Below are positions 1,296-24,143 of a stretch of DNA of 64,000 nt, one piece after another. The stretch comes from Sneathiella sp. P13V-1. GTDB taxonomy: Bacteria; Pseudomonadota; Alphaproteobacteria; Sneathiellales; Sneathiellaceae. The DNA is taken from NCBI RefSeq assembly GCF_015143595.1, contig NZ_WYEU01000001.1, positions 62,001-126,000 of the forward strand. The letters are read 5' to 3'. Within the stretch, counting starts at the first letter, position 1. The number at the start of each line of letters is the position of its first letter. The translations under genes and the position numbers were made by a program. Under the pieces are notes generated by a model that saw only the letters and a program-made list of their open reading frames with translations, was not told the DNA's origin and searched no databases.

Positions 1296-1369
1296 TCACT
1301 AGAGCAGTTGTGAATGCTTCTGAATACTGCTAATAATTTCCAGTTCCGGTGCAAAAAATGCAGCAGTAA
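1296..1369. promoter_or_regulatory. Shared regulatory block A (LysR operator) in the atzF/lysR intergenic region
   Basis: This stretch aligns without a gap to 9731-9804 upstream of the BMP-transporter operon. Identical cores are TCACTAGAGC (1296), TGAATACTGCTAAT (1321) and TGCAAAAAATGCA (1350-1362). The last is a perfect TGCA-N5-TGCA palindrome and fits the LysR rule T-N11-A. It ends 13 bases before the LysR start codon and lies 85 bases upstream of the amidase start, so one regulator could autoregulate and control the amidase from here. The identity is seen; regulator binding is inferred. Confidence 0.75.
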
Positions 1370-1375
1370 TAAAAA

Positions 1376-3301: not shown

Positions 3302-3312
3302 AAGATCGTTCC

Positions 3313-4857
3313 TTAGTTTCCGGCCATGTGGCGGCCAATAACGGTTAAATCGGCCTCATCGGCCGGCGTTTCATAAACCAACTCGCCATGAAACATCACA
3401 GCAATCCGATCTGAAAGCTCAAGAATTTCATCGAGATCCTCACTGACCAGAAGAATCGCAACACCACGATTGCGCGCCTCCATAATTTGAGCGTGGATAT
3501 CCGCAACCGCAGCAAAATCAAGCCCGAACACCGGGTTGGCCACAATCAACACATCCACATCACCTGAAAGCTCTCTTGCAAGGACAGTTCGTTGTACATT
3601 GCCGCCAGAAAGGGTGCCGATCGGCACATCGGGGGAAGAGGTTTTCACGTTGTATTTCGCGATCAGATCTTTGGCTTGCAGTCTAAATGCCAATTTGTTG
3701 AGCCACCAGCTTCCTTTCGCCAACGGTGACTGGTCAAATGTGCGAAAAGCCAAGTTATCACTGACACTCATATTGGCGACACAGGCATTTTTAAGTGGCT
3801 CTTCGGGAAGGCAATATACCTTGTGGCGCCGCATCTCTTGCCGCGTTGCCAGATAGTTTTCACCATGCATCTGCATGGCACCGCTTATTGGCGATCGCTG
3901 CCCGGCCAGCACCTCAACAAGTTCTTTCTGTCCATTGCCTGATACACCTGCAATGCCCAGTATCTCGCCACTTTTCACCTTAAAGCTCAAATCCCGCACC
4001 ACTGTGTGCCCAGTATCATCCATCGCTGAGATTTTATCGGCAGCAAGACGAACATCGCTCTGGAGGTTGGTTTTGCGTGTTGTGTTCTTGGCGCTGATAT
4101 CAGAGCCAACCATCATTTGCGCCATATCGTCCGTTGTAAGGTCGCTTGTCTTGCCACCGCCAGCATAAACGCCGCGCCGAAGGACGGAAACTTCATCGGC
4201 AAAAGCCAGAACCTCACGAAACTTATGGGTAATCATCAGAACAGTCAGACCTTCCTCAGCGGTCATATCGCGAATTAAGCCCAGCACTTCATCTGCCTCA
4301 CCGGGGGTCAGAACAGAGGTTGGTTCATCCAGAATAAGAAAACCGCTGCCAAGATAAAGTTGCTTCAGGATTTCAACCTTCTGTTTTTCACCTGCAGATA
4401 AATCTTGTGCTTTGGTATCAAGCTGAATTTGGAATGGCATCTTCTGAATAAAAGTGGCCAGTTTTTCGCGCTCCAGCGACCAATTGATAAAGTTTGGTAG
4501 ATCGGGCTGAGAAAGAACCAGATTTTCAAGAACCGTCATATGCGGAACAAGTGTGAAATGCTGATACACCATCCCCAAACCCAGCATATGCGCTGCTTGC
4601 GGGTTCGCGATGTCATATTCCTTGTCATTCACCAGGATGCTGCCTTCTGAAGGCGGGTGAAACCCCATAACGCATTTGACCAATGTGCTTTTTCCCGCAC
4701 CATTTTCGCCAAGCAGTGCGTGAAAGCTTCCCGGCTTCACTTTCAGTGAGACATTGTCTAACGCAGTGAAGTTACCAAATTTTTTGCTAAGGTTGATGAT
4801 TTCAAGACCAATGGATTGACGGCTTCTACCAATGGCCTCTGTAGAAAATATATTCAT
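3313..4857 (-). CDS. Double-domain ABC ATPase of the BMP-type (nucleoside-family) transporter
   Basis: A 514-residue protein with two nucleotide-binding domains, as usual for BMP/PnrA and sugar-type importers. Domain 1 (about 18-260) has Walker [10 protein letters not shown], signature LSAGEKQK and Walker [11 protein letters not shown]. Domain 2 (about 270-510) has the naturally degenerate Walker [10 protein letters not shown], signature LSGGNVQR and Walker [13 protein letters not shown]. It energises import through the permeases at 6554 and 7467, although its gene sits downstream of the two hydrolases. ATGA overlap with biuH at 4854 indicates coupled translation, so transport and degradation genes are truly one operon. 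Confidence 0.93.
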
Positions 4858-5534
4858 GGCAGGCCCGCAATCAGTTCCTGAGAACTGGACACCGCACCAA
4901 AGACCCCGCCCTGCATCTTTACCATCTTGATGGCATGATCATGATTGTCTTTATCTGTCGCCCCGCAGCAATCTTCCAGCAGGACACATTCATATCCTCG
5001 ATCATTGGCTTCTCGCATAGTGGTATGCACGCAAACATCCGTGGTAATGCCGGTAAGAATAAGATTTTCGATACCTCTTGTACGCAGGATCAATTCAAGA
5101 TCAGTGGCGCAGAATGACCCCTTACCCGGCTTATCGATAATAGGCTCACCATCTATAGGATATAGCTCTGGAATAATGTCCCAGCCCGGCTCTCCACGGA
5201 CAAGGATCTTGCCGCATGGCCCCGGATCTCCGATTCCAGCGCCGATCTGCTGTGAACGCCAACGTTTGTTTGCAGGTAAATCAGAAAGATCAGGGCGATG
5301 ACCTTCACGGGTGTGAATAATGTGATACCCTTTTTCGCGCATGGCCAAAAGGACCGCCTTGATCGGTTCCATCGGTGCGCGCGTCAAAGATAGGTCATAG
5401 CCCATCTGGTCCACATACCCGCCAGGTCCACAGAAATCCGTCTGCATATCAATAATGATCAACGCGGTATTTTCTGGGCGCAAGTTACCATTGTAGGGCC
5501 ATTTATAAGGCGTGGAATTGATATGATCAGCCAT
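4854..5534 (-). CDS. biuH: Biuret hydrolase (biuret amidohydrolase)
   Basis: A 226-residue isochorismatase-fold cysteine hydrolase. It is close along its whole length to the characterised Rhizobium leguminosarum biuret hydrolase as I remember it: the WPYNG opening, [33 protein letters not shown], and [22 protein letters not shown]. Catalytic residues are Asp29, Lys135 and Cys168, each seven lower than the Rhizobium numbers. The reaction is biuret + water to allophanate + ammonia, feeding the allophanate hydrolase at the left edge. The ATG at 5534 is chosen over in-frame upstream codons because AAAGGAAA precedes it and homology begins there. It overlaps the formamidase stop by eight bases. Confidence 0.88.
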
Positions 5535-6531
5535 CTGGATTTCCTTTAAATGTTCTAACTGGGGCTTCAAACCCACAAGACGTCCCGTCTGTCACCTTGA
5601 CATCCTCTTCCCAGGGAAGACGGTATTTGCCAGCTGCAAGGTCATGCATATAGGTATAAGGGCAATCCTGTGCCCCGCCTTTTACGGCCACATAGGCGCG
5701 ATGTCCGAACTGGTAAATGTTATTTTCAACACCCCATTCAATACGCGCTTCGCGCACAAGATCAGGGCGCACTTCTGCAGTAATAATTTCATCAGGACGG
5801 GCTCCACCATGGGCGAGGATCGTTCCATCGAAATTGACGATCATACCCTCTCCCATGGAATCAAATGTACCGTCGGAACCACACATGCAGACATTGGCAG
5901 TTACCATCAGATTACAAAATGAGTTGGATTGATTGGTGAATTTCCACGCCTCACGCATCGGAGCCGTATAGCCTGCGGTGCGGATCATGATCTCAGCACC
6001 CTTATAGGCTGCTTCGCGCGCCATTTCAGGGAACATGCCATCATGGCAGATTATGAGTGAAAGCTTGGAGCCATTGGGTCCATCGCAGACCGGAATACCC
6101 ATATCACCCGGCTCCCAGGGTTCTACTGGCACCCACGGATGCATTTTGCGATAGTAAAGTTGGGTTTCGCCTTTGTTATCGATAATGAGTCCCGAATTAT
6201 ACGGATTGCCATCCGGATTAAATTCCATAATAGAAAAACAGCCCCAGATATCATTGTCGATGCAAGCTTGTCTTAGGGCGGCGACTTCCGGACCGTCCAA
6301 CGAGCACATAATGTCCGGATTTGTATCCATAGATAGGCCATGCAAGGCATATTCAGGAAACACCACCAGATCCATCGTTCTCGAATTGCGGCGCGCCTTG
6401 CCGACCATGGCAACAACTTTTTGGGTCTGAGCTGTCAACTGTTCTTTGGTTTCAACAACGGGAAGCTGCAGTTGCACCAAGCCAATCACTACACCATTGG
6501 GCGATTTGTTCAATCCACCTAAGCCGCTCAT
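5527..6531 (-). CDS. amiF: Formamidase (nitrilase superfamily, AmiF type)
   Basis: A 334-residue nitrilase-superfamily amidase with the Glu-Lys-Cys triad at Glu60 ([10 protein letters not shown]), Lys129 (YYRKMHPW) and Cys162 ([20 protein letters not shown]). Length and the C-terminal [13 protein letters not shown] and [13 protein letters not shown] segments match formamidase AmiF, which hydrolyses formamide to formate and ammonia; aliphatic amidase AmiE is longer. A TTG lies directly before the chosen ATG at 6531; an AAGGAG site precedes both. Between the permease and biuret hydrolase genes, it adds a second ammonia-releasing step. It may act on formamide itself or on a formylated ureide intermediate. 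Confidence 0.87.
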
Positions 6532-6553
6532 CAAATCTACTCCTTGTCTGTTG

Positions 6554-7480
6554 TCATCGGGTGACGCTCAGTTCTCCCGGCGCACCGGAGAATTTGCCAC
6601 TTGAAGAAGAGGTCGCAATCATGATTGCAAGGGTAAGAAAGTAAGGGGCCGCATTGAAAAGATAATATCCTTGCGTAAAGCCCACAGCCTGCAAAGCGGG
6701 CCCCAATGCGCCTGCCCCACCAAAAAGCAAGGACGCATAAAAACAATAAAGTGGGTTCCATCTGGCAAAGATCACCAATGCAACGGCGGTGATACCTTGT
6801 CCACTGGACAATCCTTCGTTCCAGCTACCAGGATAGTAAAGCGACAGAAATGACCCGCCGATACCCGCCAGAAAACCACCTGCCATAGTCGCGAGAATAC
6901 GCACACGATTGATTGAGATCCCGGCGGCGTGTGCGGCATCCTCACTATCGCCCACAGTGCGTAACATTAGTCCCCAACGTGTACGGTTCAGGAAAAACAG
7001 CAATAAGGGGGTCAGAAGAACGCCCAGTACAAAAAGAACATTGATTTCAAGGGCTGCACGGATTTGCGGGATATCGCTCCACCATCCTAAAGGAATTGCT
7101 GGCAGATTTGGCGCCTTGGGTTGGATAAACCCTTTCCCTAAGAAAAAGGCCAGACCAGTCCCGAACAACATCAAAGCAATGCCAAGGGCAATGTCGTTGA
7201 CCCGCGGCATATTACAAATAATCCCGTGAGCAAGGCCAAAGCCACTCCCTACAACACCGGCAACCAACACCCCCAGCCAGGGTGAGCCTGTTAGATAGGA
7301 AATGGCATAGCCTGACATGGCCCCCATCACCAGAGTGCCTTCGAGACCAAGGTTAATCCTGCCGGATCTTTCCGTTAGGCACTCTCCCAAACTAACCAAA
7401 AGAAAGGGTGTTGAAACCCGGATGGCACCGGCAAAAACGGCCAATGGAACTGTCCAGAACCCAAGATCAACGACTTCCAT
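6554..7480 (-). CDS. ABC permease, second subunit of BMP-type importer
   Basis: A 308-residue inner-membrane permease of the BPD_transp_2 family (nucleoside/BMP importer type), with about eight to ten hydrophobic segments. Conserved stretches are ERSGRINLGLEGTLVMGA near the N-terminus, NDIALGIALMLFGTGLAFFLG, and GFLAGIGGSFLSL with GQGITAVALVIFARWNP in the second half. The ATG at 7480, with AGGGAGG just upstream, is preferred over a further-upstream in-frame start. It overlaps the first permease gene by 14 bases. Together with that permease it should form the membrane channel for the imported ureide or amide. Confidence 0.92.
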   Translation of the reverse strand: MEVVDLGFWTVPLAVFAGAIRVSTPFLLVSLGECLTERSGRINLGLEGTLVMGAMSGYAISYLTGSPWLGVLVAGVVGSGFGLAHGIICNMPRVNDIALGIALMLFGTGLAFFLGKGFIQPKAPNLPAIPLGWWSDIPQIRAALEINVLFVLGVLLTPLLLFFLNRTRWGLMLRTVGDSEDAAHAAGISINRVRILATMAGGFLAGIGGSFLSLYYPGSWNEGLSSGQGITAVALVIFARWNPLYCFYASLLFGGAGALGPALQAVGFTQGYYLFNAAPYFLTLAIMIATSSSSGKFSGAPGELSVTR

Positions 7481-8543
7481 CACTGGCCTCCCTAGGTGTG
7501 AATATCTTAAATCGCCCAAACAGGGTTTCGCTGGTTAGAATGACAACGAAGATGATCCCTTGCAGCACCAATACACTTGCATCCGGAAGATCCAGTCGAC
7601 GCTGTAGAAGACCTCCGCTAGCATCAATACCTCCAAGCAAAATGGCCACGGGTATGATTGCCATTGGATTTTGTCGCGCCAGAAAAGCAACAAGAATACC
7701 GGTATATCCGTACCCCGCCGCCAAAGGCTCATTCGCCGCACCATGAACCGCGGCAATTTCAACCATGCCCGCCAATCCAGCAGCAGCGCCTCCGATCAAA
7801 CAGGTGATGATGAGCAATTGCCCGACGGGAAGGCCTGAAATTGCCGCCGCTTTGGCATTTCCGCCGACAATTCTTGCCGCAAAGCCGAACGTGGTTCGGC
7901 TCATCAGGATGTAGGTAATGATACAAAAAACAATACCAAAGATCAGACCCCAATGGACGTCCATCCCCGGAATGGTCCCAATCATATTCGCATCCCCAAT
8001 AGGTGGACTGGATGGCTTATTAAGACTGGCTGGGTCGCGCATCGGACCACCGACCATATGATTAAGAATGGCAATAGCGATATAGGTAAGCAGTAAGCTT
8101 GAGATGGTTTCATTAACACCGCGATAATGACGCAAGGCACCACAGAGACCGATCCAGGCTCCCCCCATAATCATCCCTCCCAATGCCATCATAATTTGAA
8201 CGGTCAAAGGCGAAGAAGAATCCGGGAGCGCCAGTGCGACCGCCGCTGCGGCTAAGCCCCCCATCACTAGCGCCCCTTCTCCCCCGATGATCACCATACC
8301 AAGCTGGGCCGGCAAAGCAGTGCACAACGCCGCCAGAATAAGCGGGGCTGCCCTCTGCAAAGTATTTTCAATGGAAAAAGCGGATCCAAATGCTCCTTTA
8401 TACATTAAGGCCATAGCTTCAAAGGGATCGACCCCAGCAGCTGTCACGAATAATCCAAAGAGGATGAGTGACACCGCCAGGGACACCACTGGAAGGGCAA
8501 TCGCTTCCGAAGCGACGACCAATCGATTCGAAAGGAATTTCAT
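7467..8543 (-). CDS. ABC permease, first subunit of BMP-type importer
   Basis: A 358-residue permease with a long hydrophobic profile and the family blocks IGGEGALVMGGLAAA, HYRGVNETISSLLLTYIA and NEPLAAGYGYTGILVAFLARQNP. It is the larger partner of the permease at 6554, as in PnrA/Nup-type nucleoside importers. The gene follows the binding-protein gene by only three bases. The family is usually linked to nucleosides, but here both flanks are ureide enzymes, so the substrate is probably biuret, triuret or a related amide (inference from context). Confidence 0.92.
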   Translation of the reverse strand: MKFLSNRLVVASEAIALPVVSLAVSLILFGLFVTAAGVDPFEAMALMYKGAFGSAFSIENTLQRAAPLILAALCTALPAQLGMVIIGGEGALVMGGLAAAAVALALPDSSSPLTVQIMMALGGMIMGGAWIGLCGALRHYRGVNETISSLLLTYIAIAILNHMVGGPMRDPASLNKPSSPPIGDANMIGTIPGMDVHWGLIFGIVFCIITYILMSRTTFGFAARIVGGNAKAAAISGLPVGQLLIITCLIGGAAAGLAGMVEIAAVHGAANEPLAAGYGYTGILVAFLARQNPMAIIPVAILLGGIDASGGLLQRRLDLPDASVLVLQGIIFVVILTSETLFGRFKIFTPREASDGSR

Positions 8544-8546
8544 AGA

Positions 8547-9668
8547 TTAAACGCTACCAATGACACCTTTAACCAGCCAATCCATGGATTCAAGCCAGGT
8601 ATCTGTTTGGCTATGGGATTTACCAGCGGAAATAATAGTCTTGCCGTCATTGGTTTCAATTGGACCTTTGTAGATCACCATGTCGCCGGACATAAATTTG
8701 GCTTTCGCGGCATCGGCTTTTGCCCGGGCTTCTGCTGAAACAGCCGGACCATAAGCAGATGTCTTAACAATGCCTTCTTTCAAGCCTCCGCGGACAAGAT
8801 TTGGAATGGTCTTTTTACCCACAAACATGTCAGCGTAATCAGCATACACTTTAGACCAGTTCCATTCCGCTCCTGTTAGGTAACCCTTAGGTGCCAATGG
8901 AGCTTGGGAAGCGTGATAGCCACAGCTGTACATACCACGTTTTTCAGCAGTCTCGACGACCACCTTTGGACCATCCACGTGACATGTGACAACATCCACG
9001 CCTTGATCAGCCAAGCTATTTGTCGCTTCGGCTTCCTTAACCGGCATGGACCACTCTCCGGTGAAAATCACTTGTGTGGTGATCGTCGGATCAATGGATT
9101 GCGCACCCAAGGTAAATGAGTTGATGTTGCGCAACACCTGTGGGATTGGCTTGGCTGCAACAAAACCCAATTTTTTGGATTTCGTCGCATAAGCTGCGAC
9201 AATACCGGACAGATATTGAGCCTCATCAATGTAACCAAAATAGCTTCCAGTATTCGATGGGTGCTTGTCACCGTTCCAAAGGCCGCCGCAATGAAGGAAA
9301 GTCAGATCCGAATACTTGCTGGCCATTTTTAGCATATGCGGATCAAAATAACCGAATGACGTTGGGAATAACAAGGAAGCGCCATCCAGATTGATCATAC
9401 TTTCCATTGTTTTCTGAACAGCAACTGTTTCTGGAACGCTTTCTTCTTCAACAACCTTAATACCAGGAATTTTCTTCAAGGCCGCGGCACCTTCAGCATG
9501 CGCCTGATTATAACCATAGTCATCCCGCGCACCGACATATATGAAACCAATTGTCGTGGTTGCTGCCAAAGCCTGGCGTAGAGGGGAAGCAGAAATAGCA
9601 CCGACCGCACCAGCAGCTGCCATCCCGCGCATTATGGATCGGCGATCAATTATAGTTTTAGCTGACAT
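8547..9668 (-). CDS. BMP-family (PnrA-like) substrate-binding protein, Tat-exported
   Basis: A 373-residue periplasmic binding protein of the BMP/Med/PnrA family. The N-terminus DRRSIMRGMAAAGAVGAISASPLRQALA is a twin-arginine signal with cleavage near residue 35. The mature part starts with TIGFIYVGARDDYGYNQAH, the hallmark of BMP proteins. AAGGAG precedes the ATG at 9668. It is the first gene of the operon reading down to the cupin. The shared regulatory block B lies 63-136 bases upstream, so uptake is probably induced together with allophanate hydrolase. Tat export suggests folding, perhaps with ligand, before export; the ligand cannot be read from the sequence. Confidence 0.92.
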   Translation of the reverse strand: MSAKTIIDRRSIMRGMAAAGAVGAISASPLRQALAATTTIGFIYVGARDDYGYNQAHAEGAAALKKIPGIKVVEEESVPETVAVQKTMESMINLDGASLLFPTSFGYFDPHMLKMASKYSDLTFLHCGGLWNGDKHPSNTGSYFGYIDEAQYLSGIVAAYATKSKKLGFVAAKPIPQVLRNINSFTLGAQSIDPTITTQVIFTGEWSMPVKEAEATNSLADQGVDVVTCHVDGPKVVVETAEKRGMYSCGYHASQAPLAPKGYLTGAEWNWSKVYADYADMFVGKKTIPNLVRGGLKEGIVKTSAYGPAVSAEARAKADAAKAKFMSGDMVIYKGPIETNDGKTIISAGKSHSQTDTWLESMDWLVKGVIGSV

Positions 9669-12616: not shown

Positions 12617-14362
12617 CTAACGCCCCAAATACTCAACCATTTGATCGCGCATCACAAATTTCTGTGGCTTGCCTGTAATGGTCATGGGAATTTTATCCAC
12701 CACACGGACGAATTTCGGGATTTTATAGTGGGCGATTTGTCCTTGGCAGAAATTCTGGACATTGCCCGCATCTAGATCCGCGCCGTCATTTGAAACAATC
12801 CAGACACATACTTCTTCCCCCAGACGTTCATCCGGGATGCCGAAAACCTGAACTTCAATAATGTCTGGATGACGCATGAGAAACTCTTCGATCTCACGGG
12901 GGTAGATATTCTCGCCGCCGCGAATGATCATATCTTTCTTCCGCCCGACAATGGAACAGAACCCCTCTTCATCCAATACGGCCAGGTCCCCTGTGTGCAT
13001 CCAGCCATCAATGATCGCTTCATCGGTGCGCTCGGCATCTTCCCAATAGCCTTTCATCACTGAATATCCGCGGGTACAAAGCTCTCCTTGTGCGCCAACA
13101 GGGACAATTTGCCCCTCATCATCGACAATCTTAACCTCCAGATGGGGATGGATTCTCCCCACTGTTGCGCATCTTTTTTCAATCGGGTCGTCGACAAAAC
13201 TTTGGAAGGAGACAGGTGATGTTTCTGTCATGCCATAACATATGGTCACTTCTTTCATATGCATTTGGCTGCCGACTTTTTCCATTATCTCAATGGGGCA
13301 AGGCGCACCTGCCATGATACCGGTTCTTAAAGATCCAAGATTGTAAGTCTGCTTCTCCATCTCTTGCAGCATCGCAACAAACATGGTCGGCACACCATAA
13401 ACCGCCGTGCATCGTTCAGAAGACAACGCCTGTAAGGTTGCTTCTGGCTCAAACGCTTCCCCCGGGAAAATCATTGTTGCGCCTTTACTGATCGCCCCTA
13501 ACACCCCCATCACCATACCAAAACAATGGTAAAGCGGCACAGGGATGCAAAGACGGTCTGCTTCGGTAAGTTCGATCCTATCCGTTACAAAGCGCGCGTT
13601 ATTGACGATGTTATAGTGAGACAGTGTTGCGCCTTTCGGGGCGCCGGTTGTACCAGATGTAAACTGAACATTGATAGGATCATCTGGCGTGAGTGTTTTT
13701 TCGATTTTGGAGAGACGCAATTGCTGGGCTGGGCCGCCCAACGTCTTCACCTGCTCGAAACTAAACAGGCCGTCAGAAACATCTGCATCCATGACAACCA
13801 CACTTCGAAGATGCGGCAGCCTTGCCGCACGAAGCTGCCCCGGTTCACAAGACTTCAGTTCGGGGGCGAGCCCTTTAATCATCTCCAGATATTCTGAGGT
13901 CTTAAAAGATTTCGCCAAGATAAGGGCCTTGCAGCCAACTTTATTGAGGGCATATTCCAGCTCTGCAACCCGGTAAGCCGGATTGATATTGACCATCACC
14001 ACGCCAATGCGCGCGGTTGCAAACTGGGTCAATACCCACTCAAATCGATTGGGGGACCAAATGCCGAGGGTATCCCCTTTTTCCAATCCCATGGCGAGGA
14101 GGCCAGACGCAAGCGCGTCAATTTCCCGATCAAAATCGTAATAGCTAAAGCGCTCTCCGGTCTCTTTAAAAACCAATGCCTCGCGTGGGCCAAAGCGGGA
14201 TACTGCTTCACGGAACATTTCTGGAATTGTCATGTAACGTAGTTCACTATCCGACCGCCCCTGAACATAGGACAGTCCCTTTTGCGGCTCTCCCCCCTTC
14301 AAGTCATGTTGGGATCCGACAGATTTGATTTTCGTCATCAAACTTTCAGTCAATATTGACAT
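12617..14362 (-). CDS. AMP-forming acyl-CoA synthetase
   Basis: A 581-residue acyl-CoA synthetase of the ANL superfamily. The P-loop FTSGTTGAPKG is near residues 233-243. Further motifs are YGMTETSP, the GELCTRGYSVMKGYW block, the hinge DMIIRGGENIYPREIE and the C-terminal lysine region ITGKPQKF. Together they resemble medium- to long-chain fatty-acid ligases. It activates a carboxylic acid with ATP and CoA. The ATG at 14362 follows the stop of the ABC-amidase fusion by eleven bases; a GTG five codons upstream is possible. Its position right after an amidase suggests that it activates the acid released from the imported amide (inference). Confidence 0.92.
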   Translation of the reverse strand: MSILTESLMTKIKSVGSQHDLKGGEPQKGLSYVQGRSDSELRYMTIPEMFREAVSRFGPREALVFKETGERFSYYDFDREIDALASGLLAMGLEKGDTLGIWSPNRFEWVLTQFATARIGVVMVNINPAYRVAELEYALNKVGCKALILAKSFKTSEYLEMIKGLAPELKSCEPGQLRAARLPHLRSVVVMDADVSDGLFSFEQVKTLGGPAQQLRLSKIEKTLTPDDPINVQFTSGTTGAPKGATLSHYNIVNNARFVTDRIELTEADRLCIPVPLYHCFGMVMGVLGAISKGATMIFPGEAFEPEATLQALSSERCTAVYGVPTMFVAMLQEMEKQTYNLGSLRTGIMAGAPCPIEIMEKVGSQMHMKEVTICYGMTETSPVSFQSFVDDPIEKRCATVGRIHPHLEVKIVDDEGQIVPVGAQGELCTRGYSVMKGYWEDAERTDEAIIDGWMHTGDLAVLDEEGFCSIVGRKKDMIIRGGENIYPREIEEFLMRHPDIIEVQVFGIPDERLGEEVCVWIVSNDGADLDAGNVQNFCQGQIAHYKIPKFVRVVDKIPMTITGKPQKFVMRDQMVEYLGR

Positions 14363-14373
14363 CTTCCGCGCCC

Positions 14374-16761
14374 TCACATTGCCTGCCAGTCACCGCTTTG
14401 CTCAAAAGCGTGAGCTGCCTGATAGATTTTCATTTCCCCGTAATTTGGACCAACCAGCATCATTCCAATCGGCAATCCTTCGAGGAGGCCACACGGGATG
14501 CTCATTGCAGGAAGGCCACCGTTGAACGGCGCCGTATTGGCGATCATTTCAAATGCCCGTTGGACATATAGGCTGATAGAACAGTCTGCAGGTGGGATCT
14601 GCTGCGGTTTCATAGGGACCGTTGGCATCAACAGAAGGTCATATTGTTTCAGTGCTGTTTTGTAGTGATCATTGACTTTACGCATGAGGTTCTGCGCTTT
14701 GCCATAGAAACGTCCCCGATACTGCTCCTGAAAGAATTCTCCAATGAACATGCAGGTTTTCAGCGAATGACTAAGCTCATCCGGGCGGTTACGCCACTGG
14801 GCCATATGATCCATCATGGACGGGACGAACAGCCCGCGGTAGTTGGTACCACCGGAATTGCCACGCATCATGTGATCCTGCAAACCTTCCAATGTAATTG
14901 CCGTCCAACAATCCACTGCCATATGATGTTCGGGGATGGATACTTCTTCCACGCGCGCGCCCATCTCACGGAACCGCTCCGCCGCTGCCAGTACCTTTTG
15001 ATCAACATCTGCTTCGGCAGTTTCCCCGCCAAAACCTTCCTTCAGAATACCAATTCGCATTCCATGAACACCCCGCCCCAAGGCTTCCGTATACCGATAG
15101 GTTTTTGGCTTATACTGGCGCGGATCTAACCCGTCCTCACCGGCGAGCACTTCAAGCAGTAACGCGTTGTCAGCAACGGTTCTTGTGACAGGCCCCACAT
15201 GGTCAATTGTTTGTTCAATTGGCATCACACCAGAATAAGGGACAAGGCCGTGAGTTGGTTTCATACCATAAACACCGCAATTCGAAGCAGGAATACGGAT
15301 GGAGCCTCCCTGATCACCTGCAATCGCCATATCTACTTCGCCCGCTGCGACCAATGCTGCAGAACCACCTGATGATCCGCCCGCCATATATCCCCGTTTC
15401 CACGGGTTGTGGATCGGTCCTTTGGCATTGGTATGGGATCCGCCAGACAGACAGAAATTCTCACAATGGGCTTTCCCCGCAATCGTTCCCCCGGCATCCA
15501 ACATTCTGGTCACAATTGTCGCGTCGATTTCCGGGATATACCCTTCCATAATGGAAGATCCATTCATCATCGGTACACCTGCCAGACACACAGTATCTTT
15601 CAAGGCGATACGTTTTCCGCGAAGTGGGCCATCCATGGCCCCCTTAACATCCGTCTTCACATACCAGGCGTTTAGCGGGTTTTCCGTCAGGCTAGGGAAA
15701 TGGCCGGGGGATCTTGGATAGCGCACCTCTGGCAAATTATCAGGCATCGCGTCCAACCTGTCATAGGACTGGATGTAAGGCTCCATAATTTCGCTATACT
15801 CTTTCAACTCCTCATCGGAGAGGCTCATACCAAACCGCTGTGCCATTTCACGCATCTGAGAAAGTGTTGGTCTTTTAATCGTCATGTTGGTCACCACTGG
15901 TTTCTGGCTTGAAAAAGCCGTATCCGTGTCAGTTCGTTTCGGCATTGGGGCCGGAGATATGTCAGAAGAGGTTTTATTTTCGGCAGCGGCTGGGCGGCTC
16001 ACTTGCCCCCCACTTGCCCGGGTTGATCTGGCCGCGCCAAAGCCAAGGAATTGATCAACTTTCGCCTGATCTGTTAAATCCGAACGGGAAAGTTCCCCTG
16101 TAATACGTCCCCGCTCCAGCACCAGAACCCGATCAGAGAGGTCGGAAATAAAGTCAAAGTTCTGTTCCACCAGTAGGATGGATAGTCCTCTGTCTTCTCG
16201 AAGTTTGAGAAGGGTTTCTGACATTTCTTCAATGATGGAGGGTTGAATACCTTCAGTTGGCTCATCAAGGAGGAGAAATTCAGGATCTCCCATCAAACAG
16301 CGGGCGAGCGCGAGCAGTTGCTGCTCTCCCCCTGAAAGGGCGCCTCCTTCCCGATCCAGCAAAGGAATAAGGCGTGGGAAGTCTTTCAGGATCTGGTCAA
16401 TAACTTCTTCTTCGCTTCCGTTCGAATAATCATGCCAGGCAAATCGCAGATTATCCCGAACCGTCAGTTGCGGAAAAATACCCCGTCCCTGCGGCACATA
16501 TCCGATCCCAAGACCTGCCCGTTCATTTGGGGGCAGGCTAGTGATTTCAGTTCCATGGAAACGAACAGTGCCGGAGGTCGCCGGGAGGAAACCCATCGCC
16601 GTCTTCAACAACGTCGACTTACCCATACCGTTATGGCCAAGGATACCCACGACTTCATTTTCGAAAACGGCAAAATCAATACCGTGGAGAACAGGAACTT
16701 TCCCATATCCCCCGGATAGGCTTTTAACTTCCAAAAGCGTTACTTGATCTTCGTGTGTCAT
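14374..16761 (-). CDS. Fusion protein: LivF/UrtE-type ABC ATPase joined to an amidase
   Basis: A single 795-residue frame with two full enzymes. Residues 1-250 are a HAAT/urea-type ATPase: Walker A GHNGMGKST, signature LSGGEQQ and Walker B LLLDEPTEGIQPSIIEEM, the last very like UrtE. Residues about 250-295 are a Ser/Ala/Pro-rich linker. Residues 295-795 are an amidase-signature enzyme with Lys388 (ALKDTV), cis-Ser463 (GGSSGGSA) and nucleophile Ser487 (GDQGGSIRIP), close to bacterial enantioselective/nitrile-pathway amidases, which commonly begin like its TIKRPTL segment. An internal ATG at 15885 (residue 293), with GGTGA upstream, could give free amidase. The start overlaps the LivG stop (ATGA). 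I infer that it drives import and hydrolyses the amide at the inner face of the transporter. Confidence 0.92.
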   Translation of the reverse strand: MTHEDQVTLLEVKSLSGGYGKVPVLHGIDFAVFENEVVGILGHNGMGKSTLLKTAMGFLPATSGTVRFHGTEITSLPPNERAGLGIGYVPQGRGIFPQLTVRDNLRFAWHDYSNGSEEEVIDQILKDFPRLIPLLDREGGALSGGEQQLLALARCLMGDPEFLLLDEPTEGIQPSIIEEMSETLLKLREDRGLSILLVEQNFDFISDLSDRVLVLERGRITGELSRSDLTDQAKVDQFLGFGAARSTRASGGQVSRPAAAENKTSSDISPAPMPKRTDTDTAFSSQKPVVTNMTIKRPTLSQMREMAQRFGMSLSDEELKEYSEIMEPYIQSYDRLDAMPDNLPEVRYPRSPGHFPSLTENPLNAWYVKTDVKGAMDGPLRGKRIALKDTVCLAGVPMMNGSSIMEGYIPEIDATIVTRMLDAGGTIAGKAHCENFCLSGGSHTNAKGPIHNPWKRGYMAGGSSGGSAALVAAGEVDMAIAGDQGGSIRIPASNCGVYGMKPTHGLVPYSGVMPIEQTIDHVGPVTRTVADNALLLEVLAGEDGLDPRQYKPKTYRYTEALGRGVHGMRIGILKEGFGGETAEADVDQKVLAAAERFREMGARVEEVSIPEHHMAVDCWTAITLEGLQDHMMRGNSGGTNYRGLFVPSMMDHMAQWRNRPDELSHSLKTCMFIGEFFQEQYRGRFYGKAQNLMRKVNDHYKTALKQYDLLLMPTVPMKPQQIPPADCSISLYVQRAFEMIANTAPFNGGLPAMSIPCGLLEGLPIGMMLVGPNYGEMKIYQAAHAFEQSGDWQAM

Positions 16762-17477
16762 CCCGCTTTCTTCCCTAGATATACATTTCTGACCACAGGA
16801 TCTGACATGACCTTGTCCACATGATCTTCCATAAGCACTGCGCCCTGATGGAATACCGTGACTGTGGAAGCGATTGACTTGATAAACTGCATGTCATGTT
16901 CGACAATCACCACGGCGGCTGTTTTGGTCATTTCGTGAATAATTTCACTCATGCGATCCACATCTTCCGCTGTCATGCCTGCAGCGGGCTCATCAAGAAG
17001 AACCAGCCAAGGATCTGCGACGGCAACCAGACCAAGCTCAACCCGTTGTCTTTCCCCATGGGCCAATCTTCCAAGGTCTGCCTTTGCAATAGATCCCAAT
17101 GCAAGACGGTCAATAATCTCTTCCGTTTTGCGAACCGCCTCTTTAGGGGACATGAACCTGCGGGCTGCGATCCAGATATTTTCATAGACGGATAGGCCAT
17201 CCATTACGTTCGGCACCTGTGTTTTGATCCCAACACCAAGGGACGCAATTTCATGTGGATGCCAGCCCGTGGTTTCCTGCCCCCGCATGAACACTTGGCC
17301 TTCGGAAGGTGTCAGCAATCCCGTAACACATTTAAAGAAAGTGGATTTGCCCGCACCATTTGGTCCGATAAGGCATCTAAGCTCCCGCGCCTGCAATTTG
17401 AAATTCACATTGTCGGAAGCGACCACTCCGCCAAATCGCATTGTCAGGCCTGATGTTTCAAGAACAGTTTCAGCCAT
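16758..17477 (-). CDS. ABC ATPase of amide/urea HAAT transporter (LivG/UrtD-like)
   Basis: A 239-residue ATPase with Walker A GPNGAGKST, signature LAHGERQR, Walker B LVLLDEPAAGMT and the switch histidine in VVIVEHDM. The LAHGERQ signature resembles UrtD/FmdE rather than amino-acid LivG. The ATG at 17477, with GGGGAA upstream, is preferred to an in-frame start 44 codons earlier that would lie inside the permease gene. It overlaps the LivM-like gene by eight bases and the fusion gene by four. It partners the ATPase half of the fusion protein. Confidence 0.92.
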   Translation of the reverse strand: MAETVLETSGLTMRFGGVVASDNVNFKLQARELRCLIGPNGAGKSTFFKCVTGLLTPSEGQVFMRGQETTGWHPHEIASLGVGIKTQVPNVMDGLSVYENIWIAARRFMSPKEAVRKTEEIIDRLALGSIAKADLGRLAHGERQRVELGLVAVADPWLVLLDEPAAGMTAEDVDRMSEIIHEMTKTAAVVIVEHDMQFIKSIASTVTVFHQGAVLMEDHVDKVMSDPVVRNVYLGKKAG

Positions 17478-18507
17478 TTGCGTTCCCCACATTACGATTT
17501 GTTCGGCGATTTCTGTGTTTTCGCCCACCACGACGGGCAAAACTGATTTGCCAAAGTGTAGAGACGGCTGGAACGATGCCCTTAGGCAGGAACAAAACAA
17601 ACAGAACAAGAATGAGCCCGGTAATCAGGGTGTTATCAATCATCGTTTGCTGCCCCAAAAGAAATTTTAAATAAGCAAGCCCAGCCGCCCCAATGATGGG
17701 CCCAAAACGTGTCCCAAGACCGCCCACAATGCACCAGATGATAATCTCGGCTGACTGCCCAAGGCTGAACAATCTAGGGGTTACAATTTCACCCCAGTTT
17801 GCGAAAAAGCCGCCGGCAAGCCCGGCGATCGCCGCGCCGATAGTAAATAGGATCGTCTTACGCGCCCGCACGTCATACCCCATGAGGGAGATACGCGTTT
17901 CATTCTCCCTGATGCCAATGGCAACGCGTCCAAATGAGGTGCGGAGCAACCAGGTCACAAAGAAATACACAACGAGTAACGCGACAGCACAAACATAGAA
18001 AAGCGCATCCCCCCAGATATATTCTTCAGGCATGCCTGGAATATTGAGCGTGGGGAAACCCGGGATGCCATTGAAGCCTCCCAAACGCGCCTCGCCGATC
18101 ACATATTGCGGACCAGCCGTTGAGTTCACGAATTTGAACAGGATAAGCGTCACAACCAGCGTGATCACACCAAGATAGACATCGGTCAGTCGCCCATAAA
18201 ACATCATCGCGCCCATCAAAGCCGCGAATAGTGACGGAACAGCAATGGCTAAAAGCATCGGAAATGTACTTTCACCGATATTGATCGCCGCCACCGCATA
18301 GGTGTAAGCGCCAAGTCCAAAAAACGCGGCTTGGCCAAAACAGAGGATGCCGCCAAAGCCCCAGATGAGACCCAGACTAAGTCCCAGCATGGCGTAAACC
18401 ACCAAAATTGTCAGGGTATGGGTGCCAATGATTTGTGGCAGGATCCACATCAATAGTAAGCCCACTACGAGGGCAATAAAGTCCTGTTTCTTCCACATGA
18501 GGGGCAT
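17470..18507 (-). CDS. HAAT transporter permease (LivM/UrtC-like)
   Basis: A 345-residue permease with about nine to ten membrane helices and the LivM hallmarks GLIWGFGGILCFGQAAFFGLGAY, IRENETRISLMGYDV and GGLGTRFGPIIGA. The ATG at 18507 overlaps the previous stop as TGATG, with GGGGAAA upstream. It forms the membrane channel with the LivH-like subunit. Its C-terminal tail is basic (RRGGRKHRNRRTNRN), unlike most LivM proteins, and may contact the ATPases. Confidence 0.92.
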   Translation of the reverse strand: MPLMWKKQDFIALVVGLLLMWILPQIIGTHTLTILVVYAMLGLSLGLIWGFGGILCFGQAAFFGLGAYTYAVAAINIGESTFPMLLAIAVPSLFAALMGAMMFYGRLTDVYLGVITLVVTLILFKFVNSTAGPQYVIGEARLGGFNGIPGFPTLNIPGMPEEYIWGDALFYVCAVALLVVYFFVTWLLRTSFGRVAIGIRENETRISLMGYDVRARKTILFTIGAAIAGLAGGFFANWGEIVTPRLFSLGQSAEIIIWCIVGGLGTRFGPIIGAAGLAYLKFLLGQQTMIDNTLITGLILVLFVLFLPKGIVPAVSTLWQISFARRGGRKHRNRRTNRNVGNANG

Positions 18508-19373
18508 CACATTTTCCCCTTAAAGAATTTGCCGGTTACCCCTTGCGGTAAAAGGCGCAAAAGAATGACAGCCGCGACAAGAAGGGCAACCTCCCCAAAG
18601 ACAGGGGAAATACTGAAAGTGAAAATCTGATTCACTAATCCAAAGAGGCTGGAGCTGCTGATCAGGCCTGCGATAAGTGACGGGCCGCCCGCGATGACGG
18701 TAATAAAGGCCTTGGCGATATAAGCGCCCCCTGACGTTGGCACCAATCCAACCAGAGGCGCAAGGATGGCCCCTGCGAAACCGGACAAAGCGGAGCCACA
18801 AAAGAAGGTCGCCATATAGATCCGATCTGGACTGTACCCCAGCGCCGCTGCAATATCAGATTGTTGCATTGTGCCCCGGGCAATTAGTCCAAGCCGTGTT
18901 GCCTTCAACAGGGCATACATACCGATCAGCAAAATGATGGAGACAAAGATGATGAAAAAATTATAGCCATTGATCTGATAGTCACCAACGGCGAAGCCCG
19001 TAATGGGCGTCGTGATACTTGTGGTCGTGTTACCGAAAATCATGGTAGCAACACCAATGAAGAACAGGCTAAGCCCCCATGTAGCAAGCATGGTATCCAC
19101 AAGACGGCCATAGAGATGGCGAATGATCAATCTTTCAACAACCAGCCCAATCAGCCCGACAACCAGCGGGGCAATAATCAACATGGCCACAAATACATTT
19201 ACACCTAAATTCACCGAGACAATGGTAGCGTACCCACCCATCATCATAAATTCACCATGGGCAAGATTAATAACTTTCATCATCCCGAACACGACCGCCA
19301 GCCCGGCACTTACCAGTGCCAGTGACGCGATGGCGTAAAGAACTTCAACAAGTATGACAAACAACAGGTCCAT
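18507..19373 (-). CDS. HAAT transporter permease (LivH/UrtB-like)
   Basis: A 288-residue permease with about eight hydrophobic segments. The family motif MMKVINLAHGEFMMMGGYA lies near residue 31 and the loop RLGLIARGTMQQSDIAAALGYS in the second half. It pairs with the LivM-like subunit, whose start it overlaps. It lies 101 bases after the binding-protein gene, with two hairpins between them, so it may be made at a lower level than the binding protein. Confidence 0.92.
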   Translation of the reverse strand: MDLLFVILVEVLYAIASLALVSAGLAVVFGMMKVINLAHGEFMMMGGYATIVSVNLGVNVFVAMLIIAPLVVGLIGLVVERLIIRHLYGRLVDTMLATWGLSLFFIGVATMIFGNTTTSITTPITGFAVGDYQINGYNFFIIFVSIILLIGMYALLKATRLGLIARGTMQQSDIAAALGYSPDRIYMATFFCGSALSGFAGAILAPLVGLVPTSGGAYIAKAFITVIAGGPSLIAGLISSSSLFGLVNQIFTFSISPVFGEVALLVAAVILLRLLPQGVTGKFFKGKM

Positions 19374-19474: not shown

Positions 19475-20698
19475 CTAGATCTTGATCTCGTACTGCTTGT
19501 TATCTTTTGGATTAGCTTCCAGATCGCAAACAGCCTGAGTATCAATTGGCTGTAACTGCGGAAGGGTTTTAATGACTTTCATCTTCTGGTCCTGAATTTC
19601 CATCAGATGCACATCCAGAACCGCATGGTGCGTTTTCGGATCAACGGTCACCTTACCGCCAGGTCCCATGATGGAAATACCGGTCTCCAGCGCTTTTACA
19701 ACGTCGTCACGCTGGAACGACCCTGCTTTGCGAACACCTTCTGCCCATGTCAAAATGCCATGATAATTGGAGACGGCAATTTCATGCATACTCTGATCGC
19801 CGTTATAAGCATCTGCCCATGCTTTCTTGAAGCTGTCATTCTCGGAAGAGGCAATTTCCTGGCTATAGTTATAGGCAACCATAATGCCGTTACCCTCTTC
19901 CGGAGTTAGAACTTTATGTTCATTACCCACACCCAAAGTTGGGGATGCCAAAGGAATTTTATCCTTCATTCCGGCTGCTGCCCACTGACGGAAGAAGGAA
20001 AGATGCGCTCCGCCAACAAGTGGCGCAACAATAAGATCAGGTCCCACGGTTTGGATTTTTGCAATGGTTGATCCAAAATCTGAAACGTCCAGAGGGAAGA
20101 AGTCCACTTCAACTGTTTCACCGCCATTATCGGCCACAATTTTCTGGATCCATTTTGCCATGATCTGACCGTAGTTATAGTCAGCAGCCAGCACATAGAC
20201 TTTCTTGCCAGATTTGCCCATGGCATATGGGATCAAGGCTTCTACCTGTTGGGCAGGTGTTACGCCGTTGATGAAGATATTGCGGTCACAAACACCGCCT
20301 TCATAAAGCACATTGTAGAAATACAGTGTTTTTGATTTGCGCATGGTCTGGCGAATGGCTTCGCGTGATGCCGACAGAATGCCACCATGCACCACATCTA
20401 CTTTATCCTGGCGGGTCAGTTGTTGACCATATTGTGTATATAGCGCCATGTCAGACTGTGTATCGTAGGAGACAACCTCAACCTTTTTGCCCAAAAGACC
20501 ACCGTCTGCATTGATTTTTGAGACAGCCAAACGAAGCGCCATATCCATCGGCTTACCATAGGCGTCGAAAGGTCCGGATTGATCAAGGATTGAACCCAGT
20601 TTGATCGTATCGGCTGATACTGCCCAGTTTGGGAGCATCATTGCCCCGCCTAAAGCCGCCCCGGCGGCCATGAAATTACGTCTGTTGATATTTGTCAT
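19475..20698 (-). CDS. Amide/urea-type ABC substrate-binding protein, Tat-exported
   Basis: A 407-residue type-I periplasmic binding protein. The signal NRRNFMAAGAALGGAMMLPNWAVSA is of twin-arginine type. The mature protein begins TIKLGSILDQSGPFDAYGKPM, and its LYFYNVLYEGGVCDRNIF and VLAADYNYGQ segments are typical of the UrtA/FmdD/AmiC branch that binds urea and short amides. GAGAGG precedes the ATG at 20698. It follows the flotillin gene by 45 bases and feeds the LivHM-like channel. Residue identities point to an amide rather than a branched amino acid; the exact ligand is unknown. Confidence 0.9.
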   Translation of the reverse strand: MTNINRRNFMAAGAALGGAMMLPNWAVSADTIKLGSILDQSGPFDAYGKPMDMALRLAVSKINADGGLLGKKVEVVSYDTQSDMALYTQYGQQLTRQDKVDVVHGGILSASREAIRQTMRKSKTLYFYNVLYEGGVCDRNIFINGVTPAQQVEALIPYAMGKSGKKVYVLAADYNYGQIMAKWIQKIVADNGGETVEVDFFPLDVSDFGSTIAKIQTVGPDLIVAPLVGGAHLSFFRQWAAAGMKDKIPLASPTLGVGNEHKVLTPEEGNGIMVAYNYSQEIASSENDSFKKAWADAYNGDQSMHEIAVSNYHGILTWAEGVRKAGSFQRDDVVKALETGISIMGPGGKVTVDPKTHHAVLDVHLMEIQDQKMKVIKTLPQLQPIDTQAVCDLEANPKDNKQYEIKI

Positions 20699-20743: not shown

Positions 20744-22339
20744 CTATTTCTCATCTTTCGACTTGATGCGATTTGCGTAATCTGCTGTTCGGCCGGCAAG
20801 GTTGGCGTCAAAATCCAATCCAATCTCCTCGCCCATCTGTTTCATTGCTGGAAGGCGAACGGCCATCCCCAGGATCTGATCCATGGCGGATCCAAAAGCG
20901 CTTTCAGAGCCATTTTCACCTGAGGCACTCCCTTGCCCCCCAATTCCACCGATATGGTTTATTTTAATGGAGTCGATTTTTTCGACAGGTTTCATCATCT
21001 GGGTCATGATCTCTGGCAAACGATCCAGTTTCCGCTCTTCCAGTCGCATTCCAATGAGCTCTCTGCTCATGGAATTTTCAGCGTTAATAAGTGCAACTTT
21101 ACCCTTGGCCTCAGCTTCCGCTTTGGCAAACTCTGCAGCCGCAAGCACTTTGGCAGCATCCGCTTCGGCTTTAGTTTTCGTGGCAAGAGTTTCCGCATCG
21201 CTTTTCGCCTGAGAGGCGCTAAGCTCAATTTCTTTTCGCAACTTCAGGTCAGCGATTTCATGCTCGCGCTTGGCAACGGCACGCTCTTTCTGCGCCTGAA
21301 CTTCCTCCGCAGCCAACAATACCTGCGCCCGTGCCGCTTCTTCTAATGCTTGCGTTTCAAACTCAGCGGCTCTCAATTTGGCTAGCTGCGTTTCATTTTC
21401 GATTTTGGTTTCTTCAAGGCTTAGAATGGCTGCCATCTCAGACCGGCGAAGCGTTTCATCATTTGCCACTTTGCTCGCTTGTATTTTCTGTTCCGCTTCA
21501 ATGCGAGCCGTCTGAACCTTCAAATCGGATTCTGCCTTCGCCGCCTCGGTTTTCGCACGTGCCTCCGCCTCCAGCTTATCCAGCATTTCCTTTTGTGCGA
21601 TGGCCGCTTCGCGTTCTGTTTTCTCGATCTCCAGATGACGCTGGTGCTTTTTCAACTGACTTTCACGAATGGCAAGATCAGTTTCAGTCTCGATGCGCGC
21701 CCGTTCACGGCGTTGCTCCGCAATCAATTCAGCATGACGGCGGCGACCTTGCGCAACGAAAGAGTTGTTTTCATCAAACTGCGCCAGATCGCCTTCATCG
21801 ACTTTAAGCAATGATGCGGAAATAAGGAGAAGCCCGAACTGTTCCGCTTTTTTGGCAACAGCCGCCTCTACCTCTTTGGTATAATCGCTTCGCTCACTGT
21901 GGATTTCATCCAAGGTACGGCGCGCCGCGGCAGCCTGCATGGCGTCAACCAGCGGGCCCCTTAGAACAAAATCAATCGCCTCACCCCCGCGCTCAATTTT
22001 TGCCCCCAAAGACTGAGCTGCCGCAGCGACCCCCCCTGTGGTCGGCATGACTTTGAACTCAAACTCCATCGCGACGTTCGCGCGAAGTTGATCTGACGTC
22101 AGAAGGGCTTCTCGATCCGTACGGGATACCGAGAAAGACACAGCATCCATCGCGACGCGTTTCGTCTGATGCAGGATCGGAAGGGACAAACAACCGCCAT
22201 CCAGAACAATACGGCGCCCTCTAAAACCTGTCCGGACGATCGCGGAATTTAGTGTTGCTTTAACGTAGAATTTCTGGAGAAACCAAATCCCCAGCAACAG
22301 AACCACAGCCAAAATGACGATTGAAACAGCCCAAACCAA
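20744..22339 (-). CDS. Flotillin/YqiK-like SPFH membrane protein
   Basis: A 531-residue flotillin-type protein. One membrane helix (about 2-22) comes first, then an SPFH domain (to about 190) and a very long Ala/Glu/Lys-rich coiled coil (about 200-430). A glycine-rich segment (HIGGIGGQGSASG) leads to the C-terminal tail. Such proteins oligomerise in membrane microdomains. The likely start is a TTG at 22339 with GGGAG upstream; no nearby ATG fits the helix. It is encoded directly ahead of the amide-binding protein on the same strand, so it may organise or stabilise the transporter-amidase complex. That role is inferred only from position. Confidence 0.88.
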   Translation of the reverse strand: MVWAVSIVILAVVLLLGIWFLQKFYVKATLNSAIVRTGFRGRRIVLDGGCLSLPILHQTKRVAMDAVSFSVSRTDREALLTSDQLRANVAMEFEFKVMPTTGGVAAAAQSLGAKIERGGEAIDFVLRGPLVDAMQAAAARRTLDEIHSERSDYTKEVEAAVAKKAEQFGLLLISASLLKVDEGDLAQFDENNSFVAQGRRRHAELIAEQRRERARIETETDLAIRESQLKKHQRHLEIEKTEREAAIAQKEMLDKLEAEARAKTEAAKAESDLKVQTARIEAEQKIQASKVANDETLRRSEMAAILSLEETKIENETQLAKLRAAEFETQALEEAARAQVLLAAEEVQAQKERAVAKREHEIADLKLRKEIELSASQAKSDAETLATKTKAEADAAKVLAAAEFAKAEAEAKGKVALINAENSMSRELIGMRLEERKLDRLPEIMTQMMKPVEKIDSIKINHIGGIGGQGSASGENGSESAFGSAMDQILGMAVRLPAMKQMGEEIGLDFDANLAGRTADYANRIKSKDEK

Positions 22340-22478: not shown

Positions 22479-23633
22479 TTATAAGGTTTTCACGATTTGA
22501 AAAGTCACCCCATCTGCTTTTGCGAGATACATTGGTCGTTTTTTTGAAAGATCACCCGCTCTACTCGCTTCACGAACGCTGGAAAATTCGATACTGTCCA
22601 GACAGCTACTGTCCTTTTCCTTCCAATCATTTTCATGATGCTTCATAAGGCCTGCTAGAAACTGCATTCCTTCATATGTTGACTGGCCCAACGCGTTTAG
22701 CACCGGTGCATTCTCACCGTGCAATTGATAGTATTTTTCCCTGAAGCTAGCGTTGGCAGGTGTGCTTATCGCGCCGAAATATGATGATGCGGAATACAGC
22801 TCATGCAGATTGTCTTCGCCGCATGCAAGCAGGCCATTTTCCTCTATGGCACAGGAAAATCTGATCATTTTCTCATGCATTTTAGCTTCGCCAAAAGCAC
22901 GGTTAAATGTAATTGCGTCCTGCCCTACAACAGAAATCAGCACGGCATCTGCCTCGGCACTTTCAAGGTCAACGAGGATACTTTCCATGTCAGCCACGCC
23001 AAAAGGCAGATACTTTTCATATGCTATCGTAACACCGCATTCCTGCAGTTTCTCCTTGGCATAGGAATTTGACGCCCTAGGCCAGACATAATCATTCCCA
23101 ATGAGCGCCCACCGCTTGGTATTCTGGCTCTTACTTAAATGTTCTAGCGCTGGGCCAAGCTGTTTTTCAGGGGTATCCCCGATCGCAAAGATACCTTTGG
23201 TGTTCTCTCCCCCCTCATAAAGCGGCGTATAGACATATGGGATTCGTTGGTTGACAATTTTGCTTAAATTCTGGCGAACAGCGCTGATATGCATCCCAAC
23301 GATTGCATCAATTCTGTTGGTTTCAATCAGATTATTTACCACTTCATCCACCGGGTCCGTCGCTTCAAGCGCTGAGTCGATGGCAACCAGTTCTATGGCT
23401 TTCCCACAGATCCCACCGGCATTGTTAAGTTGCGAAACAGCAACCTGGGCACTTGAAATACAGGAAGGCGCCCAAAGCCCCGCAGAGCCACACATGGGTA
23501 TCAGCAAACCTACCCGAAACACCGAGTCATAGGGTCTCGCCAAGCGGTCATCCAGGTCGCGCAACTCGGCAGGCATAAAATCTGAAACCAGTAATCGCGC
23601 CCCCTCTAATGGGGCATCGTGCGTATTAGGCAT
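22479..23633 (-). CDS. AmiC-like cytoplasmic amide receptor (binding protein without signal peptide)
   Basis: A 384-residue type-I binding-protein fold with no signal sequence; a polar 40-residue N-terminus precedes the first strand (FRVGLLIPMCGSAGLW). Segments PYVYTPLYEGGE and IGNDYVWPRASN match AmiC, the cytoplasmic amide sensor that restrains antiterminator AmiR in Pseudomonas. No AmiR/ANTAR gene is in the window; instead a MarR gene is divergent with 75 bases between. It probably senses the amide imported by the downstream operon. The ATG at 23633 lacks a good ribosome site. A cytoplasmic binding enzyme is less likely. Confidence 0.78.
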   Translation of the reverse strand: MPNTHDAPLEGARLLVSDFMPAELRDLDDRLARPYDSVFRVGLLIPMCGSAGLWAPSCISSAQVAVSQLNNAGGICGKAIELVAIDSALEATDPVDEVVNNLIETNRIDAIVGMHISAVRQNLSKIVNQRIPYVYTPLYEGGENTKGIFAIGDTPEKQLGPALEHLSKSQNTKRWALIGNDYVWPRASNSYAKEKLQECGVTIAYEKYLPFGVADMESILVDLESAEADAVLISVVGQDAITFNRAFGEAKMHEKMIRFSCAIEENGLLACGEDNLHELYSASSYFGAISTPANASFREKYYQLHGENAPVLNALGQSTYEGMQFLAGLMKHHENDWKEKDSSCLDSIEFSSVREASRAGDLSKKRPMYLAKADGVTFQIVKTL

Positions 23634-23708: not shown

Positions 23709-24143
23709 ATGCAAAACAAATACTCGGTCCAGTCTTACATTTCATATTCTCTGGCCACAGCGCACCGCAAAATTCATAACTCTCTCAAGAAGCGTTTGAA
23801 AGAGTATGGCGTGCAGGTTGAAGCATGGCGCGTGATGGAGATTTTGGAATCCGAAGCCAAACTTACCATGGGTGATTTGGCTGAAGTTGTCTTAATGAAT
23901 CCGCCGACCCTGACAAAACTTGTCGACCGCATGGTATCTGATGGCATTGTTCATCGCCGCGTCGGCAATGAGGATCAGCGGCAAGTAAACCTTGTCCTGA
24001 CTGAGCTTGGCCACAAACGTATTGCCCAGATCAGAAAAGAAGTCCAAAGCGAAGACGATCTGATTTTTGAGAAAATTGGCCACGAAAAAGCGGAGCTTTT
24101 AAAATCACTTCTGTCGGAACTAAGCGACGCGACGCCAAACTGA
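23709..24143 (+). CDS. MarR-family transcriptional regulator
   Basis: A 144-residue MarR regulator of standard size. The winged helix is at about 45-105 (LTMGDLAEVVLMNPPTLTKLVDRMVSDGIVHRR, wing NEDQRQVNLVLTELG), flanked by dimer helices. GCGGGAAA precedes the ATG. It is divergent from the AmiC-like gene and upstream of the MFS gene. It probably represses the amide operon, its own gene or the MFS gene, with an amide or aromatic acid as inducer. The family is certain and the target inferred. Confidence 0.92.
   Translation: MQNKYSVQSYISYSLATAHRKIHNSLKKRLKEYGVQVEAWRVMEILESEAKLTMGDLAEVVLMNPPTLTKLVDRMVSDGIVHRRVGNEDQRQVNLVLTELGHKRIAQIRKEVQSEDDLIFEKIGHEKAELLKSLLSELSDATPN

Follow-up and report, generated by a model that had tools for sequence, protein, structure and literature searches.

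An ABC importer ATPase fused to an amidase in a conserved alphaproteobacterial amide-import operon, with a predicted internal start for the free enzyme

The fusion gene and its cassette

The window analysed here is a stretch of 64,000 nucleotides from Sneathiella sp. P13V-1, and it contains a cassette of importer genes in which one frame encodes both an ABC ATPase and an amidase (Table 1). Examination of the product reveals ABC_tran at residues 25-169 (109 bits vs a Pfam cutoff of 25) and Amidase (PF01425) at residues 371-777 (307 bits vs 27), the latter assigning it to the amidase signature family. The ATPase part belongs to the LivF/UrtE-type ABC importer ATPases (PF00005) and retains an intact Walker A (GHNGMGKST), Q-loop (YVPQ), signature (LSGGEQQ) and Walker B (LLLDEP). 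Across 34 diverse fused homologues the key residues of these motifs are invariant, as are the catalytic K388, S463 and S487. An earlier sequence-only reading of this DNA had described a complete UrtE/LivF-type ATPase joined by a Ser/Ala/Pro-rich linker to a complete amidase with a Lys388-Ser463-Ser487 triad, and the Pfam matches, the motifs and the linker (residues 241-292, predicted to be disordered) agree with that description. The type of the ATPase stands with one correction: it scores 263 against the TIGR03410 cutoff of 285.8, and we therefore speak of a UrtE/LivF-type ATPase and not of a certified urea-transporter subunit. Indeed, the equivalog models for UrtA, B, C, D and E all fall under their cutoffs, and the label of urea transporter was not adopted. 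A short basic motif, FGAARSTR, lies at the start of the linker (approximately residues 241-247) and is kept in most fusions, unlike the remainder of the linker.

The amidase part scores 772 bits against NF005565 (cutoff 545) over residues 293-794, which places it in the RhAmidase-like subfamily. Among solved structures it matches the Rhodococcus amidase 3A1K best, over almost the whole length; the triad lies at 96, 171 and 195 counted from Met293, where the Lys, Ser and Ser align with those of 3A1K, and the Rhodococcus enzyme has its triad under the same numbers. The N-terminal helical domain of the RhAmidase type is recognizable by sequence and was modelled as helical at residues 300-338. The full-length structure prediction rested on just 34 related rows and modelled the amidase core poorly, for which reason homology to 3A1K was used for this part instead.

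Table 1. Features of the fusion gene and its cassette (positions are those of the window)
Feature	Position	Strand	Remarks
Acyl-CoA ligase (AMP-binding), final cassette gene	12617..14362	-	PF00501; NF009233 824.7 bits, cutoff 832; synteny
ABC ATPase-amidase fusion gene	14374..16761	-	795 aa; ATG 16761, stop 14374-14376
Amidase-signature enzyme, residues 293-795	14377..15885	-	NF005565 772 bits; aligned to 3A1K almost end to end
Catalytic K388, S463, S487	15598-15600, 15373-15375, 15301-15303	-	amidase part of fusion
Internal start codon ATG (Met293), predicted free amidase	15883..15885	-	conserved start codon in homologues
Internal Shine-Dalgarno GGTGA	15891..15895	-	5 nt before Met293; nucleotide-level conservation, low structure
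Ser/Ala/Pro-rich linker, residues 241-292	15886..16041	-	predicted disordered, pLDDT ~30; matches intergenic stretch of unfused relatives
UrtE/LivF-type ABC ATPase domain, residues 1-240	16042..16761	-	PF00005; TIGR03410 below cutoff; model confidence ~90; invariant motifs
UrtD/LivG-type ATPase (partner ATPase)	16758..17477	-	stop overlaps start of fusion
Permease 2 (UrtC/LivM type)	17470..18507	-	PF02653
Permease 1 (UrtB/LivH type)	18507..19373	-	PF02653
Tat-signal substrate-binding protein, UrtA/AmiC-like	19475..20698	-	PF13458, TAT_signal; nearest structures 8TG1, 7S6E, 8HIC, 1PEA
Flotillin/SPFH protein	20744..22339	-	PF15975, PF01145; synteny
AmiC-like sensor candidate, binding protein without evident signal peptide	22479..23633	-	PF13458; 1PEA/1QNL AmiC matches; synteny
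MarR-family regulator, divergent	23709..24143	+	PF01047; same place in Sulfitobacter and Pleomorphomonas

Nearly all fused loci that are long enough share one gene order, namely the AmiC-like binding protein, flotillin, the binding protein, two permeases, the UrtD-type ATPase, the fusion and the acyl-CoA ligase, and the divergent MarR gene accompanies the cassette wherever the stretch reaches that far. The operon supplies the other parts of the transporter, as the sequence-only reading had held. Since no gene of the cassette other than the fusion offers a second ATPase, the full-length protein is presumably required for transport; as databases call it just 'amidase', these genomes are left with an importer that has no annotated second ATPase. 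Given that the Urt equivalog cutoffs were missed, we name the system an amide importer by its context: the AmiC-type sensor, the amidase and the ANTAR gene of a split relative. The sensor role of the AmiC-like candidate (22479-23633) is predicted from its fold match; it has no TAT_signal, and no AmiR gene was seen adjacent to it. The ligase points to activation of the released acid with CoA, and the cargo is probably a primary amide whose acid has this fate.

Several other features of the window drew attention. The flotillin/SPFH gene, a fixed cassette member in nearly all loci, places a membrane-scaffold protein in an importer operon. A possible further amide or ureide uptake operon lies at 3-9668, with an amidase (PF01425, 3-1277), an isochorismatase-type hydrolase (2624-3301) and ABC importer genes (~3313-9668). 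A 999-aa protein encoded at 26293-29292 combines phosphotransferase (APH), peptidase M23 and class-III aminotransferase domains, and a DUF2855 protein (29366-30448) adjoins a CoA-transferase/hydrolase gene group.

Distribution and origin of the fusion

When the entire protein served as query in a scan of the collection, both domains lay in a single frame in all 80 of the best loci from other species, a few of which end at a contig edge. Fused loci include those of Sulfitobacter, Ruegeria, Phaeobacter, Hoeflea, Nitratireductor and Sneathiella, and fused ORFs number 97 altogether. The sequence-only reading had envisaged that homologous loci might always carry two separate genes, or that a frameshift or assembly error might lie in the linker. 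The domain pair instead recurs in other genera within a constant cassette, split versions being found just in less related operons; and since closed plasmid records likewise carry it as one CDS, annotated just 'amidase', an assembly or sequencing error that joined two genes, for which we found nothing in favour, is refuted and of negligible probability. The fusion is common to many marine and soil alphaproteobacteria. An even sample of the class yielded it at full length in 12 of 387 genomes, that of the window included, and as a contig-edge fragment in a thirteenth, and among 397 genomes from across the phylum, those outside the class yielded none at the threshold used. Within Sneathiella, the genus of the window, its occurrence is patchy.

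Unfused relatives point to how the two genes came to be joined. Paracoccus methylovorus and Pleomorphomonas have the same operon order with amiC/ANTAR regulators, and in both the ATPase and amidase genes are separate, with gaps of 3 bp (in Paracoccus, along with an ANTAR gene) and 85 bp, respectively; several further genomes of the class also have the two genes unfused and adjacent in the same order. From these separate neighbouring genes in less related operons it appears that the fusion arose by loss of a stop codon. At one locus (L134, genome G702, ~1500-3900) the ATPase and the amidase lie in one frame with a single TGA between them, which falls exactly at the would-be start of the linker, the amidase resuming in frame about 50 codons on. 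This arrangement is likely a picture of the state before fusion, and with a stop at this junction the linker looks like a one-time intergenic spacer opened by stop loss. The fusion probably originated once: once two contig-edge fragments are relabelled, every fused row of the tree lies to the same side of one branch, whose support of 85 is not decisive. The amidase-only loci L014 and L118 had been considered as reversions, which was rejected, for both are truncated by the end of a contig and extend backwards into linker sequence. In L094-L096, frames of 992-1006 aa raised the idea of a triple fusion that includes UrtD, which was likewise rejected; UrtD has its own frame in these loci, and the extra length is an out-of-frame overlap. 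The distribution supports a genuine, selected fusion in an amide-import operon.

An internal start ahead of the amidase domain

Among the fused homologues the linker is hypervariable in sequence and ranges from 36 to 94 aa in 34 different lengths, always in frame. Despite this scarcity of conserved linker sequence, most fusions keep the element GGTGA-5nt-ATG ahead of residue 293. The sequence-only reading had noticed the ATG at 15885 with GGTGA upstream, which we locate at 15891-15895, and had suggested a second form starting at Met293; conservation now speaks for that form far more strongly than the evidence then at hand. In 80 representative fusions the Met293 position is occupied by ATG in 78, by GTG in one (L068) and by ATC in one (L062), and the Shine-Dalgarno (SD) is weak or absent in L087/L089, L011 and L094/L108. 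Distant fusions achieve the same end with other letters (CAGGAGGCGATCTACATG, ACGGAGGCACGCATG, GGAGGCGATC, GGAGG, GAGGT). That conservation at the junction reflects a peptide or a protease site was considered and rejected: the residues vary (VTN, VNS, GTN, QEAIY, TEAR) and the nucleotide signal is constant.

One of four SD 5-mers precedes the Met293 codon in 73 of 97 fusions, vs 108 of 3084 (3.5%) other internal ATGs. Against expectations computed from the codon use of each gene, codon -4 ends in G in 70 of 76 sequences (35.8 expected, z 8.7), with eleven amino acids occurring at this codon, and a comparable excess is seen at the third base of codon -3 (61 of 77, 29.7 expected, z 7.7). When changes are counted on a tree of 91 fusions, which allows for their relatedness, position -10 shows 5 and position -9 shows 3, as against 27-42 at each of the remaining third positions in the stretch from -43 to -13; codon -4 has had at least 32 changes of its amino acid, vs 5 at its third base. 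A search of the window genome did not find the 16S tail, and the anti-SD was therefore assumed. With it, SD pairing favours the internal start over that of the full-length fusion in 74 of 93 cases, the energies in the window being -7.2 vs -4.8 kcal/mol. Furthermore, in 95% of fusions the folding of the region from about -27 to +20 around the internal start is weaker than that of synonymous versions; the mean z is +1.17, vs -0.37 for other internal ATGs. The SD signal is a comparative one, synonymous shuffles of single sequences being seldom significant alone (median p 0.22). We also observed that the Lys and Arg codons at +3/+4 after Met293 end in G far less often than expected (9 of 74 vs 43.7, and 2 of 80 vs 25.2), as at real gene starts.

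The four tests combined bear the marks of a working ribosome-binding site, and the comparisons indicate that selection acts on the internal start. Conservation of the SD and start codon points to a nested second product in the same frame; given the conserved SD, its spacing, the ATG and the low structure, one gene very probably yields two proteins, a transporter ATPase tethered to an amidase and the free amidase. In the open-licence literature searched we found a report neither of an ABC-amidase fusion nor of this internal start.

A proposed import-and-hydrolysis system and its relatives

In light of these connections, we propose that the frame encodes both a tethered ATPase-amidase of an amide importer and a free amidase, a reading argued from comparative sequence evidence to which we assign a probability of about 0.7. 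The full-length form would act as the second ATPase of the importer, in a heterodimer of UrtD-type and UrtE-type subunits beneath the two permeases, and its amidase would hang at the cytoplasmic face on a flexible tether of ~40-90 residues; the free 503-residue amidase would be translated from the ribosome-binding site at 15891-15895 and the ATG at 15885. The UrtA/AmiC-like protein would bind an amide, which would be imported and hydrolysed to acid and ammonia, the acid probably being activated by the neighbouring acyl-CoA ligase. The tether would provide at least one amidase per transporter and should hold down the local amide level, thereby pulling uptake and limiting leak; that cargo is hydrolysed on entry owing to the tether is suggested by operon context and homology. 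As the free amidase is likely made too, the tether would not be the sole route of hydrolysis. Free copies would add capacity, and a dimer of free and tethered amidase may form. The Rhodococcus amidase is a dimer held by its N-terminal helical domain; this domain being present here, a free copy could complete the dimer of a tethered one, which would explain the retention of both forms. A tentative extension, which we find possible but would not favour, is a two-subunit machine in which tethered and free amidase from the same message pair to give a complete dimer per importer without cross-linking two importers, the internal start having been selected for that stoichiometry.

Local trapping, a pull on uptake, a fixed ratio and regulation of the ATPase are all candidate benefits of the tether. 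Against the proposed tethered and free amidase it can be said that a small, fast-diffusing amide limits channelling through proximity alone, and that some relatives thrive unfused. Related operons with adjacent split genes would also fit a fusion that merely fixes stoichiometry or co-expression with no kinetic gain from the tether. We regard this as doubtful: conservation across many genera, with a linker that drifts in length yet is never broken, suggests that the link itself is kept, and an internal start would be needless for stoichiometry alone. A regulatory role, in which a tethered amidase occupied by amide or product alters the ATPase rate as do the extra domains of MalK and MetN, leaving bulk hydrolysis to the free form, would accord with the likely existence of both forms, and where importer ATPases have C-terminal domains, these often serve regulation. 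Such a role is nonetheless unlikely: the predicted long disordered linker would be atypical of regulatory coupling, and the tethered triad is invariant, an argument that is not decisive alone as the free form shares the same codons. Finally, there might be just the single 795-aa protein. Its conserved SD-like stretch would then make elongation pause between the two domains, to allow folding or docking at the membrane, or be a relic of the start that the amidase once had as a separate gene. The fusion itself is certain, and unfused relatives have their own SD ahead of the amidase gene, so that a relic would be expected initially; however, a relic should have decayed, whereas within a linker saturated with changes positions -10 to -6 have been preserved, as has the ATG, and a pause could do without a start codon at a constant distance, without weak folding and without A-rich, G-poor codons right after it. 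We therefore consider this quite improbable.

Genes for importers and for cargo enzymes are normally separate, and a physical link between their products is generally guessed. Here the link is fixed in one chain across many genera, together with a predicted route to the enzyme alone, and with both thus fixed by evolution it becomes directly testable whether uptake and the first catabolic step profit from a tether.

The amidase of Rhodococcus sp. N-771 (3A1I/3A1K; NF005565/PRK07235), a stand-alone enzyme coupled to nitrile hydratase, matches the window's amidase at near full length, including the N-terminal helical part and the triad; unlike the window fusion, it has no transporter attached. 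The UrtABCDE and FmdDEF importers are drawn from the same superfamilies as that of the window (a binding protein, two permeases and two ATPases), though the Urt equivalog scores of the window are all below cutoff. The fmd cluster encodes a hydrolase along with its transporter (PMC10781810; PMC10392092), but as a separate gene of another family. With the AmiC/AmiR operon of Pseudomonas the window shares a signal-less AmiC-like binding protein, here adjoining a transporter; unlike that operon, it has a divergent MarR gene, and no ANTAR gene was seen beside it. In peptidase-containing ABC exporters (C39 domain) the ABC ATPase chain bears the enzyme that cuts its cargo, but these are exporters with a peptidase and a fused permease, differing in both architecture and direction. 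An internal start in cas8 or cas10 yields the C-terminal part as a second subunit, Cas11 (PMC11899642); Cas11 is a small structural subunit, whereas the nested product predicted here from sequence would be the whole enzyme domain of a transporter ATPase. In the open-licence papers searched we found no reported importer ATPase fused to a cargo hydrolase, and the C39 exporters and Cas11 each show one principle separately.
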